Part shown: positions 28,495-56,353 of the stretch, in pieces | Numbering within the stretch: position 1 is the first letter of the stretch | Layout of the letters: each line of letters starts with the position of its first letter | NCBI RefSeq assembly: GCF_004519295.1 | Contig: NZ_SOZH01000009.1 | Location: 124,001 to 188,000, forward strand | Length of the DNA stretch: 64,000 bases | Source of the DNA: Cellulosimicrobium funkei | Lineage (GTDB): Bacteria; Actinomycetota; Actinomycetes; Actinomycetales; Cellulomonadaceae | Direction of reading: 5' to 3' | The notes under the pieces: model-generated | Told to the model about the DNA's origin: nothing | The model's database searches: none | What the model saw: only the letters and a program-made list of their open reading frames with translations | Translations under genes and position numbers: made by a program

Positions 28495-29790
28495 GTGCAC
28501 AACCCCTTCCGTTCCCGCGCGCCCGAGACGGCCGACGTCACGGCGCACACCCCCCAGACCACGGCCGAGGCGGTGCCGACCGCCGAGAGCCCCGAGAGCC
28601 CCGAGAACGCCACCCGTCGGTCCGCCCGCGCGGCCCGGACCCTGCGCTCCACACGCCGACGCCGCTGGTCGATCGTCACGGCGGCCACCGCCGTCGCGCT
28701 CGTCGGCTCCGGTGCCGTCGCCTACGGCGAGGCCAGCAAGACCGTGACGATCGACGTCGACGGCGAGACGACCACCGTCAGCACGCTCGCCGGCTCCGTC
28801 GGTGGCGCGCTCGACGCCGCGGGCGTCGAGGTCGGCGCGCGCGACCAGGTCGCTCCCGACCCCGGCTCCGCGCTCAGCGACGGCGACGACGTCGTGGTGC
28901 GCCTCGGCAAGAAGGTCACCGTCCAGACCGACGGCGCGCAGTCCGACGTCTGGCTCACCGCGCTCGACGCCGACGAGGCGCTCGACACCCTCGCCGAGCG
29001 CGGCGGCGACGTCCGCCTCGTCGCGTCGCGGTCCGGCGAGCGCGCGTCGCTCGGCCTGCGCCTCGACGCCGACGGTCCGGTGAACGTGGTGGCCGACGGG
29101 CAGACGAAGGTCGCGCCCGACGGCAGCATCGGCGTCCCCGCGATCCTCGACCAGCAGGGCATCGAGCTCGGCGACCTGGACCGCGTGAGCGTCCAGCGCG
29201 TCGAGGCGCCCGAGCCGGGTGCGCCGGCGGTGTCGCTCGTCGTGCAGCGTGTCGTCGTCGAGCAGCAGCAGACCACGACCCCCGTGCCGCACGGGACCGT
29301 GCAGCAGCCCGACGACGCCAAGTACACGGACGAGTCGGCCGTCACCCAGGCGGGTGCCGACGGCGTCACCACGACGACGTTCGAGGTCACGCTCGTGGAC
29401 GGCGTCGAGGAGTCGCGCGAGCAGCTCTCGCAGGAGGTGACGACCGCTCCCGTGGACGAGGTCGTCACGACCGGCACGAAGGAGCGCCCGAAGGACCCGC
29501 GCACGATCGGGCAGGCCATGGCCGCCGAGCGTGGCTGGACCGGCTCGCAGTGGACGTGCCTCGAGAAGCTGTGGACCAAGGAGTCCAACTGGAACCCGAC
29601 GGCGGACAACCCGACGTCGAGCGCCTACGGCATCCCGCAGTCGCTGCCCGGCTCGAAGATGGCGAGCAAGGGCGCCGACTGGGCGACCAACCCCGCGACC
29701 CAGATCGCCTGGGGCCTCGACTACATCGCCGGCTCCTACGGCTCGCCGTGCGGCGCGTGGTCGCACTCGCAGGCCGTCAACTGGTACTGA
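28495..29790 (+). CDS. DUF348/G5 cell-wall protein with lysozyme-like C-terminal domain (paralogue 1)
   Basis: 431 aa from GTG 28495. Cytoplasmic leader, membrane anchor at about residues 58-79 ([21 protein letters not shown]), then ubiquitin-like DUF348 repeats ([53 protein letters not shown]), a G5 domain (about 245-330, ending [11 protein letters not shown]) and a C-terminal transglycosylase-like domain: [35 protein letters not shown] and [16 protein letters not shown]. Glu in KLWTKESNW is the likely catalytic acid. It should bind and cut peptidoglycan outside the membrane. It ends before a long palindrome and metG. Confidence 0.85.
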
Positions 29791-29805: not shown

Positions 29806-29868
29806 CCGCCGAGCACGGGGTTGCCGACGTCCTGGAGCTGAGAACGTCGGCAACCCCGTGCTCGGCGG
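29806..29868. repeat. 25-bp perfect palindromic element, intergenic copy
   Basis: Two perfectly complementary 25-nt arms (29806-29830 and 29844-29868) flank a 13-nt loop, between the wall-enzyme stop and metG. The outer arm core GCCGAGCACGGGGTTG is almost identical to the element inside tatD. It could also act as a terminator for the upstream gene. Confidence 0.85.
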
Positions 29869-29932: not shown

Positions 29933-31726
29933 ATGACCCACATCCTCTCGGCCGTGGCGTGGCCGTATGCCAACGGGCCGCGCCACATCGGCCACGTCGC
30001 AGGTTTCGGTGTCCCGTCGGACGTCTTCAGCCGGCACATGCGGATGGCGGGTCACGACGTCCTCATGGTCTCGGGCACCGACGAGCACGGCACGCCGATC
30101 CTCGTCCAGGCCGACAAGGAGGGCGTGAGCCCGCAGGAGCTCGCGGACCGGTACAACCGGGTCATCGTCGAGGACCTGCACCAGCTCGGCCTGTCGTACG
30201 ACCTGTTCACGCGGACCACGACGCGCAACCACTACGCCGTCGTGCAGGAGATGTTCCGCACGGTCCACAAGAACGGGTACATGGTCGAGCAGACGACCAT
30301 GGGCGCGATCTCGCCGTCGACGGGCCGCACGCTGCCCGACCGCTACATCGAGGGCACGTGCCCCATCTGCGGCTACGACGGCGCGCGCGGCGACCAGTGC
30401 GACAACTGCGGCAACCAGCTCGACGCGATCGACCTGATCAACCCGCACAGCCGCATCAACGGCGAGACGCCGAAGTTCGTCGAGTCGAACCACTTCTTCC
30501 TCGACCTGCCCGCGTTCGTCGACGCGCTGGGGGACTGGCTGCGCACGCGCACCGCGTGGCGCCCGAACGTCCTGAAGTTCTCGCTCAACCTGCTCGACGA
30601 CGTGCGCCCGCGCGCCATGACGCGCGACATCGACTGGGGCATCCCGGTCCCGCTCCCCGGGTGGGAGGAGAACTCGAGCAAGCGCCTGTACGTGTGGTTC
30701 GACGCGGTGATCGGGTACCTCTCGGCGTCGATCGAGTGGGCGCGGCGCAGTGGCGACCCGGACGCGTGGCGCGCGTACTGGAACGACCCGGAGGCGCGGT
30801 CGTACTACTTCATGGGCAAGGACAACATCACGTTCCACTCCCAGATCTGGCCGGCCGAGCTGCTCGGCTACGACGGCCGGGGGAGCAAGGGCGGGGCGCC
30901 GGGGGCCTACGGGAACCTCCAGCTCCCGACGGAGGTCGTGTCGAGCGAGTTCCTCAACGTCGAGGGCCAGAAGTTCTCGTCGTCGCGCGGCGTCGTCATC
31001 TACGTGCGCGACATGCTGGCCCGCTACCAGCCGGACGCGTTCCGGTACTACGTGGCGTCGGCCGGGCCGGAGACGCAGGACGTCGACTTCACGTGGGCCG
31101 ACTTCCAGCGCCGCACGAACGACGAGCTCGTGGCCGGCTGGGGCAACCTCGTGAACCGCACGGCGAACCTCGTGCACAAGAACTTCGGGGCGATCCCGGA
31201 GCCGGGGCAGCGCCAGCCGATCGACGAGGGCGTCCTCGCGACGACGACGACCGCGTTCGGGCGCGTGGGCGAGCTCATCGCGACGCACCGTCAGCGCGCG
31301 GCTGTCGCCGAGGCCATGAAGACGGTCGGCGAGGTGAACAAGTACGTGTCGGACACCGAGCCGTGGAAGCTCAAGACCGACCCGGACCGGCTCGCGACCG
31401 TGCTGCACACCGTGACCCAGGCCGTGAGCGACCTCAACACGATCCTGTCCCCGTTCCTGCCGCACTCGGCGCAGCAGGTGCACGAGGCGTTCGGCGGCAC
31501 GGGCACGTTCGCCGCCCAGCCGCGCATCGACGAGGTGACCGACCTCGACGACGACTCGCGCCACTACCCGGTCATCACGGGCGACTACCGCGCCGAGGGC
31601 CTGGCGACGTGGGAGCCGAAGGCCGTCGTGCCCGGCACCCCGGTCGGCAAGCCGATGCCGGTGTTCACCAAGCTCGACGACTCGATCGTCGAGGAGGAGC
31701 TCGACCGCCTGCGCGAGAACGCCTGA
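29933..31726 (+). CDS. metG: Methionyl-tRNA synthetase
   Basis: 597 aa. HIGH motif in [15 protein letters not shown] (residues 18-21), the CP1 insert with a single CxxC...CxxC zinc knuckle ([18 protein letters not shown]), and the KMSKS-loop variant KFSSS (residues 347-351). Then NWGNLVNRT-type anticodon-binding helices ([18 protein letters not shown]). It charges tRNA-Met. Length fits the shorter, dimerisation-domain-free MetG of actinobacteria. It is followed after 2 nt by tatD, so the two genes are cotranscribed. Confidence 0.97.
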
Positions 31727-31728
31727 CG

Positions 31729-32715
31729 GTGGCCAAGCAGCGCGAGCGCGGCTGGCCGCCGGACCCGGAGCCGCTGCCGGTCCCGGTGGTGGACAACCAC
31801 ACGCACCTCGACTCGATCGCCCACGTCCTCCCCGAGGGCACCCCTGCCCCGACCGTCGCGGACCACCTGGCCCGGGCGGCGGCCGTCGGCGTGGACCGGC
31901 TCGTGCAGGTCGGCTGCGACCTGCCGGCGGCGCGGTGGACCGACGCCCTCCTGAGGGAACCGGCGTCTGCCGAGCATGGGGTTGCTGCCCGCCCGGCGGC
32001 CGTGACGGGCGACAACCCCATGCTCGGCCCCGGGGTGGGGAAGGTGCTCGGGGCCGTGGCGATCCATCCGAACGAGGCCGTGCTGCACGGTGGGGTGCGG
32101 GAGGTCGGCCCGGACGGGCTCGAGCCCGACCCGCGGCCGCACCACGACGTGCCGCTCGACGACGCGGTCGCGGAGATCGCGGCGATCGCGCGCGCGAACG
32201 ACCGCGTGCGCGCGATCGGCGAGACCGGGATGGACCTGTTCCGGACCGGTGCCCGGGGCGAGGCCGTCCAGCGCGAGGCGTTCCGCGCGCACGTCGCGCT
32301 CGCGAAGGAGCTCGGCCTCGCGCTCCAGATCCACGACCGCGACGCCCACGCGCAGGTGCTCGACGTCCTCGCGCGCGACGGCGCCCCCGAGCGGACGGTC
32401 TTCCACTGCTACTCGGGCGACGCCGCGATGGCCCGGTTCTGCGCCGAGCAGGGCTGGTACCTGTCCTTCGCGGGCCCGGTGACGTTCCGCGCGAACGACG
32501 AGCTGCGGGCCGCGCTGCGCGCCGTCCCGCTCGGGCAGGTCCTCGTCGAGACGGACGCGCCGTACCTCACGCCGCACCCGTACCGCGGGCGGCCCAACGC
32601 GCCGTACGTCCTGCCGACGACGGTCCGTACGGTCGCGGAGGTCGTGGACCGACCGCTCGCGGACGTGTGCGAGCGCCTGGCCGCGACCTCCGTCGCGGTC
32701 TACGGCTCCTGGTGA
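31729..32715 (+). CDS. tatD: TatD-family metal-dependent hydrolase carrying an inserted palindromic element
   Basis: 328 aa from GTG 31729, 2 nt after the metG stop. Metal ligands: VVDNHTHLDS (HxH), IGETGMDLF (Glu), QIHDRDAH (His), HCYSGD (His) and ETDAPYLTPHPYRG (Asp). The family has 3'-5' exonuclease/AP-endonuclease activity. Residues 81-100 (AEHGVAARPAAVTGDNPMLG) are encoded by a 60-bp palindrome and interrupt the segment between the first metal site and AVAIHPNEA; related TatD proteins are expected to be shorter there. The reading frame is intact, so the protein is probably still made. Confidence 0.93.
   Translation: MAKQRERGWPPDPEPLPVPVVDNHTHLDSIAHVLPEGTPAPTVADHLARAAAVGVDRLVQVGCDLPAARWTDALLREPASAEHGVAARPAAVTGDNPMLGPGVGKVLGAVAIHPNEAVLHGGVREVGPDGLEPDPRPHHDVPLDDAVAEIAAIARANDRVRAIGETGMDLFRTGARGEAVQREAFRAHVALAKELGLALQIHDRDAHAQVLDVLARDGAPERTVFHCYSGDAAMARFCAEQGWYLSFAGPVTFRANDELRAALRAVPLGQVLVETDAPYLTPHPYRGRPNAPYVLPTTVRTVAEVVDRPLADVCERLAATSVAVYGSW
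31969..32028. repeat. 60-bp palindromic element inserted in frame inside tatD
   Basis: Arms 31969-31991 and 32006-32028 are complementary over 23 nt with two mismatches; the loop is 14 nt. Length is exactly 20 codons and the first base is a codon start. Arm core GCCGAGCATGGGGTTG differs by one base from the intergenic copy at 29806. Confidence 0.85.
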
Positions 32716-32892: not shown

Positions 32893-34059
32893 GTGCTCGC
32901 ACCTGACGGAACCGGCCGGCGGCGCGTGCAGCGCCTCGCGGCCCAGGGCCTCGTCGTCGCGAGCCTCGTCGGGGTCACCGGCGCGTTCGCCACGCTCCAC
33001 AAGGACGTCACGCTCGACGTGGACGGCGAGCTGCACCAGGTCTCCGCGTACGGGCGCACGGTCGCCGCGGTGCTCGACTACCAGGGCGTCGCGGTCGGCG
33101 AGCAGGACCTCGTCGAGCCCGCGCTCGCCGACCCGGCGCGCGACGGCGGCACGATCGTCGTGCGCACGAGCCACGACGTCACGGTCGAGATCGACGGCCA
33201 GGTGCAGACGATCCCGACGACGGCCCGCACCGTGGGCGAGCTGCTCACCTACCTCGGCCCGCGCGCCGAGGGCGCCGTGACCGAGGTGTCGCGCACGCAG
33301 GCCCTCGGGCGCGAGCCGATCCGGGTCTCCACGCTCAAGACGGTCCACGTCGCGGTGGACGGCGCCGTCATGCCCATCACGACGGCCGAGCCCACGGTGC
33401 GCGGGGTCCTCGCGACCGCGGGCATCGTGCTGGCCGAGGGCGACGGCACGTCCGCGCCGCTCGACGCCGCGGCGGTGGACGGGATGCTCGTGCTCGTGAG
33501 CCGCGCGGCGGCCACGGCGGACACGGTCACGGAGGTCCTGCCGTTCGAGACGGAGGAGCGCGAGGACCCGACGCTCCCGCAGGGGCACCGCGTCGTCGTG
33601 CAGTCCGGTCGCGTCGGCGAGGCGGTCACGACCTACTCGGTGCAGACGCTCGGCGGGGCCGAGGTGTCGCGCACGGTCCTCACGCGCACGGTCACGACGG
33701 AGCCGCGGAACGAGGTCATCAAGGTCGGGACGATGGACGTCTCGGTCTCGGTGGACCCGGGCTCGGCGCGCGCCGTCGGCCGCTCCCTCGCCGCGCAGCG
33801 CGGCTGGGGCGACGACCAGTTCGTGTGCCTCGACAAGCTCTGGACCAAGGAGAGCAACTGGCGCGTCGACGCGGACAACCCGAGCTCGAGCGCGTACGGG
33901 ATCCCGCAGGCGCTCCCCGGCTCCAAGATGGCGAGCGCGGGCTCCGACTGGCGCACCAACCCGGCGACGCAGATCACGTGGGGCCTCGGGTACATCGAGG
34001 GCCGCTACGGCACGCCGTGCTCCGCGTGGTCCCACTCCGTCGCCAAGGGCTGGTACTGA
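32893..34059 (+). CDS. DUF348/G5 cell-wall protein with lysozyme-like C-terminal domain (paralogue 2)
   Basis: 388 aa from GTG 32893, with AGAAGGGA upstream. A short basic N terminus (GRRRVQRLAAQG) precedes a membrane anchor (LVVASLVGVTGAFATL). Then DUF348 repeats (HKDVTLDVDGELHQVSAYG; HDVTVEIDGQVQTIPTTA; KTVHVAVDGAVMPITTAE), a G5 domain (about 230-295) and the same C-terminal lysozyme-like domain as paralogue 1: [49 protein letters not shown]. It lies between tatD and the VOC gene, a spot where only one such gene (rpfB) is usual. Confidence 0.85.
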   Translation: MLAPDGTGRRRVQRLAAQGLVVASLVGVTGAFATLHKDVTLDVDGELHQVSAYGRTVAAVLDYQGVAVGEQDLVEPALADPARDGGTIVVRTSHDVTVEIDGQVQTIPTTARTVGELLTYLGPRAEGAVTEVSRTQALGREPIRVSTLKTVHVAVDGAVMPITTAEPTVRGVLATAGIVLAEGDGTSAPLDAAAVDGMLVLVSRAAATADTVTEVLPFETEEREDPTLPQGHRVVVQSGRVGEAVTTYSVQTLGGAEVSRTVLTRTVTTEPRNEVIKVGTMDVSVSVDPGSARAVGRSLAAQRGWGDDQFVCLDKLWTKESNWRVDADNPSSSAYGIPQALPGSKMASAGSDWRTNPATQITWGLGYIEGRYGTPCSAWSHSVAKGWY

Positions 34060-39943: not shown

Positions 39944-40948
39944 GGCGAGCTGACGGGCGAAGCGGTAGCCCTGGCCGCCCTCGTGCTCGTTGTAGCGGTA
40001 GACGTCGATCGCGCGCTCGGCGCCGGGCGCCGCCCCGGCGGCCGCGCCCCAGCCGTTGTACGCCGCGTAGACGGTGGACGGCGGGCAGACCTGGTCCATG
40101 AGCGCGACGGAGAACAGCGCCGGCGCGGTGGCGCGACGGCCGAGCACCGCCCCGTCGAGGTAGGACAGCGTGCGGAACACGGTCTCCTCCGCGTCGCGGT
40201 GGACGGCGAGGTAGCGCGTGAGCTCGCGGTACGGGTCGCGGTCCGTGATCTCGACGGCGCGGCGGTAGTGGCACAGGAACGGGACGTCGGGGAGGGCCGC
40301 GACGAGCCCGTCGGCGAGGCCCGCGACGGCGATGGCGATGCCGCCGCCCTGGCTCACGCCGTGCACGGCGACGCGCTCGGGGTCGACGCCGGGCACCGAG
40401 CGCACGGCGTCGACCGCGCGCACGCCGTCGGTGAAGACGCGGCGGTAGTAGTGGTCGTGCGGGTCCTCGATGCCGCGCGTGAGGACGCCCGGGACGGCGG
40501 GCCCCGACCCGGCCGGGTCGGGCGTGCCGCCGCCGCTGCCCCACTGGCTGCCCTGCCCGCGCGTGTCGACGACGAGGTGCGCGTACCCGGCGTTCGCCCA
40601 TGCGAGGTGCTCGTGGGGCAGCCCGCGACCGCCGCCGTAGCCGAGGAACTCGACGACCGCGGGCAGCGGGGCGCCGTCGCCGGCCGTGGCGGCACGGGCA
40701 GCCTCGGCGGGCCGCACGAGCCACGCCTTGACGGGCTGGCCGGCGAACCCGGGGAACGTCACGTCGTCGACCACGACCAGGTCGAGGCCGGTCTCCACGC
40801 GCTCCAGCCGCACCGACCGAGCCAGGTCCCCGCCCGCCTTGCGCGACTCCGCGAGGGTCCGCGCCCAGAAGGCGTCCAGGTCGGCAGGCTCGTCGAGCGC
40901 GGGGGCGTAGGTCTCGAGCTCGGCGAGGGGCAGGTCGAAGAGCGGCAC
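39926..40948 (-). CDS. CE7 acetyl-esterase (acetylxylan esterase/cephalosporin-C deacetylase type)
   Basis: 340 aa, GTG 40948 with a GGAGGAT site. CE7 signatures: VVEFLGYGGGRGLPHEHLAWANAGYAHLVVDTRGQGSQWG (RGQ motif), HGVSQGGGIAIAVAGL (GxSxG nucleophile Ser), LMDQVCPPSTVYAAYN (Asp) and NEHEGGQGY (His). It removes acetyl groups from short xylo-oligosaccharides or related acetylated sugars and lacks a signal peptide, so it works on imported sugars. It is divergent from the secreted glycosidase and shares a control region with a LacI-type site. A candidate -10 on the minus strand is TAGAGT at 41010-41005. Confidence 0.92.
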   Translation of the reverse strand: MPLFDLPLAELETYAPALDEPADLDAFWARTLAESRKAGGDLARSVRLERVETGLDLVVVDDVTFPGFAGQPVKAWLVRPAEAARAATAGDGAPLPAVVEFLGYGGGRGLPHEHLAWANAGYAHLVVDTRGQGSQWGSGGGTPDPAGSGPAVPGVLTRGIEDPHDHYYRRVFTDGVRAVDAVRSVPGVDPERVAVHGVSQGGGIAIAVAGLADGLVAALPDVPFLCHYRRAVEITDRDPYRELTRYLAVHRDAEETVFRTLSYLDGAVLGRRATAPALFSVALMDQVCPPSTVYAAYNGWGAAAGAAPGAERAIDVYRYNEHEGGQGYRFARQLAWLRDR

Positions 40949-54281: not shown

Positions 54282-54335
54282 CACGCACGACGGCGGCCGG
54301 CCACCCCTGGGGGTGGCCGGCCGCCGTCGTGCGTG
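54282..54335. terminator. 26-bp perfect hairpin between convergent genes
   Basis: Perfectly complementary 26-nt arms (54282-54307, 54310-54335) with only 2 nt between. Serves both the reductase and TetR genes as a terminator. Confidence 0.75.
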
Positions 54336-55357: not shown

Positions 55358-55424
55358 GGCTTCATCCTCCCCGACGGTGCCCGGACGTGGTCGCAGCCCT
55401 GCCGAGCAGGCCCTCCCGGTGGCG

Positions 55425-55480
55425 CGAGCAGGTGGTCGTGGTGCGTCCTGTCGACCGGACGCACCAGGACCACCTGCTCG
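55425..55480. repeat. 24-bp palindromic element in the TetR/ABC gap
   Basis: Arms 55425-55448 and 55457-55480 pair over 24 nt with one mismatch, loop 8 nt. The outer end (GCCGAGCA on one strand) matches the outer end of the elements at 29806 and 31969, but the inner arm sequence differs. Confidence 0.7.
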
Positions 55481-55531
55481 GCCGCGCGGGGGTGGGGGCG
55501 GGGGTGGGTGGGAGAGAGGGGCGGAGGGGGG

Positions 55532-56353
55532 TCAGCAGGCGGTCCGCCGGCGGTAGAGCAGGGAGCCGGCGGTGCAGCTCGCGACGAGGAAGCCGGCGAG
55601 CCACGCGACGGCCGTGAGGGCCGTCGACGCGTCGGGCGCGCCCGCGAGCAGCCCGCGGAACGTCTCGATGACCGGCGTGAACGGCTGGTTCTCGGCGAAC
55701 CCGTGCAGCCACGACGGCATGGTGTCGATCGGGACGAACCCCGAGCTGAGGTAGGGCACGAACAGGAAGAGGAAGTTCACGGACTGCGACGCCTCGACGC
55801 TCAGCACGAGGCCGAGCGCCACGCTCAGCCACGTGAACGTCAGCACGGCGAGGACCCCGAACGCGACGAGCCCCGCCCAGTCGGCCGGCCCGGCGTCGGG
55901 CCGGAAGCCGAGCGCGAGCGCGACACCGACGACCACGACGGCGGACGCGAGGTTGCGCACGACGCTCGCCACGACGTGCCCCCACAGCGCGGACGGCCCG
56001 AAGATCGGCAGGGTCTTGAACCGGTCGATCGTGCCGGACGTCATGTCCTGCGCGACGCCGACCGCGGCCGTCGCGGAGCCGAACCCCAGGCACATCACGA
56101 GCACGCCGGGCACGACGTAGTCGATGTAGTCGTCCCCGCCGATCGCCCCGCCGAAGATGACGACGAAGACGAGCATGATCATCACCGGCAGCGCGAAGGC
56201 CGTGACGAGCCCGTCGACGCTGCGCAGCTGGCGGCGGGTCTCGCGGCCGACCATCGTGCGGACGTCGCGCGCCGCGGTGGCCGGGGTCTGCCGCGCGCGC
56301 GGCCGCGTGGTGCGGGACGGCCGGGGCAGCGTGGTCGTGGGTGCGGCGCTCAT
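55532..56353 (-). CDS. ABC-2 type exporter permease (DrrB-like)
   Basis: 273 aa. N-terminal basic cytoplasmic region, then six membrane segments: VDGLVTAFALPVMIMLVFVVIFGGAI, YVVPGVLVMCLGFGSATAAVGVAQDMTSGTIDRFKTLPI (the classic ABC-2 membrane motif), SAVVVVGVALALGF, VLAVLTFTWLSVALGLVLSV, FLFVPYLSSGFVPIDTMPSWL. It pairs with the ATPase encoded just upstream (4-nt overlap). Such pairs export drugs or lipids; the natural substrate is unknown. Confidence 0.93.
   Translation of the reverse strand: MSAAPTTTLPRPSRTTRPRARQTPATAARDVRTMVGRETRRQLRSVDGLVTAFALPVMIMLVFVVIFGGAIGGDDYIDYVVPGVLVMCLGFGSATAAVGVAQDMTSGTIDRFKTLPIFGPSALWGHVVASVVRNLASAVVVVGVALALGFRPDAGPADWAGLVAFGVLAVLTFTWLSVALGLVLSVEASQSVNFLFLFVPYLSSGFVPIDTMPSWLHGFAENQPFTPVIETFRGLLAGAPDASTALTAVAWLAGFLVASCTAGSLLYRRRTAC

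Follow-up and report, generated by a model that had tools for sequence, protein, structure and literature searches.

The stretch of Cellulosimicrobium funkei DNA analyzed here (64,000 nt; referred to as the window) carries, on the plus strand, a gene encoding a TatD-type DNase (tatD; 31729..32715), as indicated by a match to Pfam PF01026 (E = 1.1e-56) and by the fold match of its predicted model to known TatD structures. Gene prediction placed two plus-strand genes ahead of tatD, i.e., 29933..31726, which we take to be metG, and 28495..29790, which presumably encodes an Rpf-like protein. A second gene that we take to be Rpf-like is located at 32926-34059, so that two such genes lie on either side of metG-tatD.

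Within tatD, a 60-bp palindromic element (AEHGVAARPAAVTGDNPMLG) occupies positions 31969..32028 of the plus strand. Its two 23-nt arms (31969-31991 and 32006-32028) are complementary at 21 of 23 positions (91%) and enclose a loop of 14 nt; as tatD starts with GTG at 31729 and ends at 32715, the element represents exactly codons 81-100. The first-pass annotation had described a 60-bp palindrome with arms and loop of these lengths, inserted exactly in frame in tatD, and both the coordinates and the arm complementarity agree with this description. The predicted RNA fold of the element has an energy of -49.3 kcal/mol (z = -7.2 as compared to 200 shuffles). In an AlphaFold model of the protein (21 sequences as input; mean pLDDT 86.4; residue n of the model equals codon n+1), residues 77-85 and 87-101 had pLDDT values below 50 and were flanked by a helix (64-75) and a strand (105-109), while the model was otherwise mostly confident. 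The insert is thus most likely a disordered surface loop, as judged from this model, and we assume, from TIM-barrel folds in general, that it faces away from the active site.

A similar palindrome with 28-nt arms is located at 29806..29868, 2.1 kb upstream of the tatD element, in the gap between the Rpf-like gene (17 nt past its stop) and metG. The first-pass annotation had claimed that the core of the tatD element differs from this palindrome by one base; a single C/T difference was indeed found in the 16-nt outer arm, and the opposite arm carries the compensating change. A third copy, additional to the two noted earlier, was found at 55423..55482, between two minus-strand genes and 49 nt past the stop of the gene at 55532-56353. 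With the family model described below, the three copies scored 72.8 bits (tatD), 74.1 bits (29806..29868) and 47.7 bits (55423..55482); the first two were among the 16 copies used to build the model, and the third was not. Overall, the window had four separate sites with hairpins of at least 21 of 23 pairs and a loop of 0-60 nt, i.e., the three family copies and 54282-54335, which is of other sequence. Among 40 Markov-1 shuffled windows, 39 had no such hairpin and one had a single hairpin. The hairpin at 54282-54335 is intergenic, has 26-nt arms that are 100% complementary, is unlike the family and lies where two convergent genes end.

A search for known RNA families in the window and in three loci from congeners (L056, L057 and L062) matched only two tRNAs. 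In congeners, the gap between the first Rpf-like gene and metG holds a second element with a conserved core, GGGTCGTGG...GCGGATGGTAGACCC (L056 11874-11887, L057 7018-7031, L062 11786-11799, L063, L064), which had no Rfam match in L056, L057 or L062; by eye, its arms of approx. 20 nt differ between species and are apparently complementary to each other.

The first-pass annotation had proposed a genome-wide search for the arm core as inverted pairs and a list of copies inside genes, and this search revealed a dispersed family. In the genome that carries the window (G000, 4.38 Mb; referred to as the own genome), the core GAGCAYGGGGTTG, allowing for one mismatch or less, had 44 + 58 matches as compared to 4 + 11 matches for the reversed pattern. 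A covariance model (R1), built from an alignment of 16 copies picked because both arms were visible, yielded 144 matches in this genome (both strands counted; 150 candidates scored); when the 180 kb of contig C12 were searched fully with R1, 11 places were found, every one of which was already in the genome-wide list. R1 matches were present in all 17 genomes of the genus (30 to at least 93 each, both strands counted). Outside the genus, at least one match was obtained for 32 of 42 genomes from the family and order, mostly few and weak; 16 to 57 matches were found in G018, G039, G040 and G050. Copies are typically 59 or 60 nt long; their outer arm (16 nt) is conserved and their inner stems vary. 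The closest pair of copies in the own genome is 93% identical, i.e., near-identical copies are absent. A second core, GAACCCGGGGTTGTCG (one mismatch or less), was not found in the own genome and had 41, 27, 19, 15 and 12 matches in G003, G006, G001, G005 and G004, respectively, and 0-8 elsewhere, while the reversed control had no match in any of the 17 genus genomes. The family is therefore abundant in particular lineages. Three loci (L005, L014 and L018, approx. 1450-1590) contained composite copies, in which an additional half arm is located at a distance of approx. 22 nt from the main palindrome, on its outer side; these are somewhat reminiscent of REP dimers.

The placement of copies relative to genes was assessed with a codon-usage gene predictor for 69 fetched places, leaving out about ten weaker R1 places. 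Among these, 36 were in tandem gaps, 22 in convergent gaps, 2 in divergent gaps, 2 at edges and 7 in coding sequence. One of the latter, at 40370-40426 of the window (30.9 bits), sits in an ordinary coding stretch and was rejected as a chance match. Of the remaining 68 copies, 6 were located in genes, while 85% of the 244 kb examined is coding; most of the family thus stays out of coding sequence. The numbers of the 60 intergenic copies in tandem, convergent and divergent gaps (36, 22 and 2) differed significantly from those expected by gap length (29.0, 13.6 and 17.4, respectively; P = 3.4e-5, chi-square test); 5 of these 60 copies partially overlapped a predicted gene. Of the 36 copies in tandem gaps, 33 were closer to the upstream stop than to the next start, the median distances being 21 and 92 nt, respectively. 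A T was present at the first position outside the stems in 2 of 134 outward flanks, and G was the commonest base at all 12 positions; a canonical intrinsic terminator is thus not supported.

Copies behind stops, as long GC-rich hairpins, probably act on the 3' end of the transcript, where they would stop or protect transcripts; between convergent genes, they would do so in either direction. One could hypothesize that the copies are ordinary terminators that came to look alike by convergence and that the palindrome in tatD is a coding coincidence; the 3'-end placement would fit this explanation, as would the other, unrelated hairpins that occupy the gap ahead of metG in several other species. 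We consider it very unlikely, as the outer arm and the length of 59-60 nt are common to tens of copies, a comparable hairpin occurred in only 1 of 40 shuffled windows, the T-run is absent and in-frame copies are found in several unrelated genes.

In the own genome, the host genes of the six copies encode TatD, an S9 peptidase, a biotin carboxylase, CofC, a fumarate-reductase-like flavoprotein and one protein without a confident name. The inserts in the S9 peptidase and in a linker of the biotin carboxylase read AEHAVGDRPDENPVADPVLG and VEQAVAARPEGGTGHDRLLG, respectively; the flavoprotein copy (L012) is at the C-terminal end of a protein for which NCBIfam ranks such models first, below their cut-offs. 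The copies in CofC and in the protein without a confident name are in other reading frames. For the second subfamily, we sampled 20 stretches from G003 that had been picked for it and obtained 24 matches, with three stretches lacking any; one match (L297 107-158) was false and was dropped, leaving 23 copies, of which 7 are in genes. Two of these are in an E2 acyltransferase, one is in a large protein without an NCBIfam name and four are in the tails of an exporter-like membrane protein, an enoyl-CoA-hydratase-like protein, LutB and an NtrR-like regulator (LutB alone passes the NCBIfam cut-off). Combined, 10 of the 13 in-gene copies share one frame (P = 0.0016 if the copies were independent, which they are not fully). 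The earlier suggestion that the family tolerates coding regions is thus borne out by further in-frame copies in unrelated genes of both genomes.

Comparison of TatD among the 17 genus genomes found a full 60-nt insert, always in one frame, in nine (five like that of the own genome and four of a second type), a short stretch, AEHGV or AEQGV, in three, and no element in five, where the loop has 5-18 residues; the short pieces can be read as relics. The first-pass annotation had asked whether the 20 residues are missing from relatives; they are absent from these five congeners and from all 7 outgroup sequences, but not from the nine carriers. In a tree of TatD from 14 genus members and 7 others, two congeners without the insert fall outside the carriers, as do the outgroups, and the two insert types interleave. 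As the 7 outgroup sequences lack it, the insert was probably gained within the genus, with repeated loss as an alternative left by the weakly supported base of the tree (0.29 and 0.82).

The other in-gene sites also differ among species. The CofC insert is present in 10 of the 17 genomes and absent from 7, including the sister genome G010. In the biotin carboxylase, an insert occurs at one linker site in 14 of the 16 genomes with a match, including G010, with several different arm sequences. The S9 peptidase insert is common to the own genome and G010, absent from G013 and diverged or worn elsewhere. In the E2 acyltransferase, AEPGV-like inserts were recognized by eye in 10 of the 13 genomes whose linker could be read and are absent from the own genome, G010 and G009; palindromy was checked in G003 alone, G002 fell outside the coverage and the frame was lost in G014. 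Near its N-terminus, TatD of G016 (L036 1407-1529) contains a palindromic insertion that is unlike the family in sequence, adds 57 bp (19 codons) in frame and is absent in the close relative G011; a core search of the available loci gave no second copy. The carboxylase of G008 (L215 1400-1560) has tandem repeats of a unit of approx. 20 residues, HDGAHTPRLLTSAVGSPAD, directly ahead of the palindromic linker insert.

To assess the pairing of arms inside genes, we compared inserts at a given site across species. The 8 distinct full TatD inserts are each exactly 60 nt, with 82.6% of stem cells paired and a covariation of 0.197 as compared to 0.102 in shuffled data (reached by 0 of 500 shuffles). 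Twelve carboxylase inserts (G010 left out) showed 87.3% pairing and a covariation of 0.339 as compared to 0.196 (0 of 500). Two of five measures, i.e., double-change pairs and further pair types, were not above the shuffles (212 and 167 of 500; 83 and 149 of 500), and relatedness, as well as the independent arrival of different subfamily members, can inflate the covariation signal. The first-pass annotation had taken orthologues with the same 20 residues and free codon drift as an argument against an inserted element; half of this was found, i.e., nine of 17 genomes carry the insert, but the arms have largely kept their complementarity despite sequence change. Such persistence would mean that arms correct each other or that whole inserts are replaced. 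It also bears on the idea that TatD simply has a length-variable loop under selection at the protein level, with palindromy being incidental. A loop ranging from 5 to 44 residues across the genus is what this idea has in its favor; with all 8 distinct full inserts being 60 nt, with pairing and covariation kept, and with a similar peptide pattern again in the carboxylase, it is hardly credible.

Comparisons between the own genome and G010 further suggest how inserts change. At 13 comparable sites, the inserts were 90-98% identical at 7, which is ordinary inheritance, and 65-88% identical (gaps allowed) at 6; at two of these six, one of the flanks is less conserved as well (86 and 89%). The tatD site is the clear case of an insert far more diverged than its flanks, which are 99.3 and 98.1% identical as compared to 65% for the insert. 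Moreover, the carboxylase insert of the own genome is 88% identical to another own copy as compared to 80% to its G010 counterpart. As the carboxylase insert is nearer to an own copy and the tatD insert far more diverged than its flanks, these data suggest occasional replacement of inserts between copies or alleles, for which they make a modest case. A more far-reaching possibility, which we regard as doubtful, is that the inserts are swappable coding palindromes, i.e., 60-bp cassettes that, at fixed in-frame sites of several housekeeping genes, would be overwritten time and again by other family members or alleles in copy-to-copy conversion, with arms matched by hairpin-templated correction, such that a 20-residue module would be exchanged among unrelated proteins.

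The differences in occupancy among species show gain, loss or both. One possible explanation is an actively mobile MITE- or REPIN-like element that relies on a transposase acting in trans and whose in-frame insertions survive selection. Such an element could account for the lineage-specific abundance (GAACCCGGGGTTGTCG matches 0 in the own genome vs. 41 in G003 and 27 in G006), for the differences in occupancy at TatD, CofC, the S9 peptidase and E2, and for the CofC site that is occupied in the own genome and empty in G010. However, Y1_Tnp/RAYT, the sole transposase type searched for, was found in 0 of 17 genus genomes, while the same search was positive in 5 of 14 control genomes. Target-site duplications (k = 2-6, 8 and 9) were not above those in shuffled flanks of 67 copies, and the same flanks, C-rich on the left and G-rich on the right, had no conserved end tag or unpaired tetranucleotide. 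Plasmids, phages and viral contigs gave no match (one query each), and near-identical own copies are absent. A comparison with G010 was possible for 14 own sites, 13 of which carry a copy in G010 as well (10 on C12, the gap ahead of metG, tatD and the carboxylase), CofC being the empty one; this comparison leaves out own C12:35984, which lies beyond the G010 pieces, and G010 C69:25067, which could not be assigned to an own position. We therefore find recent transposition in this species unsupported and consider an actively mobile element improbable. Of the first-pass suggestion of a mobile or spreading palindromic family, the dispersed family stands, while present mobility is doubtful in view of the sites shared with G010, the lack of RAYT and of target duplications, and the 93% identity of the closest own copies.

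Overall, we consider it likely that the TatD copy belongs to an old family of 59-60 bp repeats found throughout the genus, which are mostly 3'-end hairpins, with a minority tolerated in frame. These few in-gene copies would sit in a flexible loop, an interdomain linker or a C-terminal tail, where approx. 20 extra residues would be translated and tolerated. The TatD insert was probably gained inside the genus and may then have been exchanged, worn down or lost by species, while its arms may have been kept complementary by arm-to-arm (hairpin-templated) correction, by replacement with other copies or alleles, or by both.

Several known systems resemble the family in part. The TRITs of mycobacteria are repeated terminator-like hairpins that have their sequence in common and directly follow genes on the 3' side; the Cellulosimicrobium hairpins differ in having no T-run and in having in-frame copies within genes. 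The RPEs of Rickettsia are described as dispersed palindromes of about 150 bp, in frame in unrelated genes and with a recurring peptide (passages of PMC10969869), and RPE-4 and RPE-6 have been equated with short CGTC repeats (PMC3733652, in part). By description, the family reported here is likewise multi-copy and in frame inside unrelated ORFs, with a recurring peptide, but its copies are mostly intergenic; given the two lengths described for RPEs, its 59-60 bp may or may not set it apart. REPs of the GTAG and CGTC super-families are many short palindromes near 3' ends, in convergent and unidirectional gaps, with a minority within ORFs (PMC3733652, in part). The Cellulosimicrobium copies also lie 3' of genes and are rare in divergent gaps, but they have no end tag, no RAYT gene and a longer stem. 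Putative REPs predicted by RepRanger are, as here, palindromes without T-rich tails, and the tabulated genomes include three Actinomycetota with large predicted numbers (tables of PMC12306157); these are per-genome palindrome predictions, and the available text of PMC12306157 does not describe in-frame copies or Cellulosimicrobium. In the open-access literature, descriptions of the family, or of palindromic repeats lying in frame in Cellulosimicrobium genes, were not found, and in the available text of a C. cellulans genome paper (PMC8325422) "palindromic" appears in a CRISPR reference only. The best reading, by description, is that the family works like RPEs and is placed like REPs, and thus represents protein-coding palindromic repeats in an actinobacterial genus.

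Coding palindromes are best known from Rickettsia, an obligate intracellular organism that is hard to work with. As Cellulosimicrobium is free-living, has tens of copies in each genome and many sequenced species, and shows presence, absence and exchange of copies at fixed sites, the entry of repeats into genes, the persistence of their palindromy and their effects on proteins would be directly testable. The family would add in-frame palindromic repeats in a phylum that neither the main text of the REP survey nor its passages naming phyla mention (PMC3733652), next to the REPs predicted in three other Actinomycetota (PMC12306157, tables), and it bears on how repeats reshape proteins.
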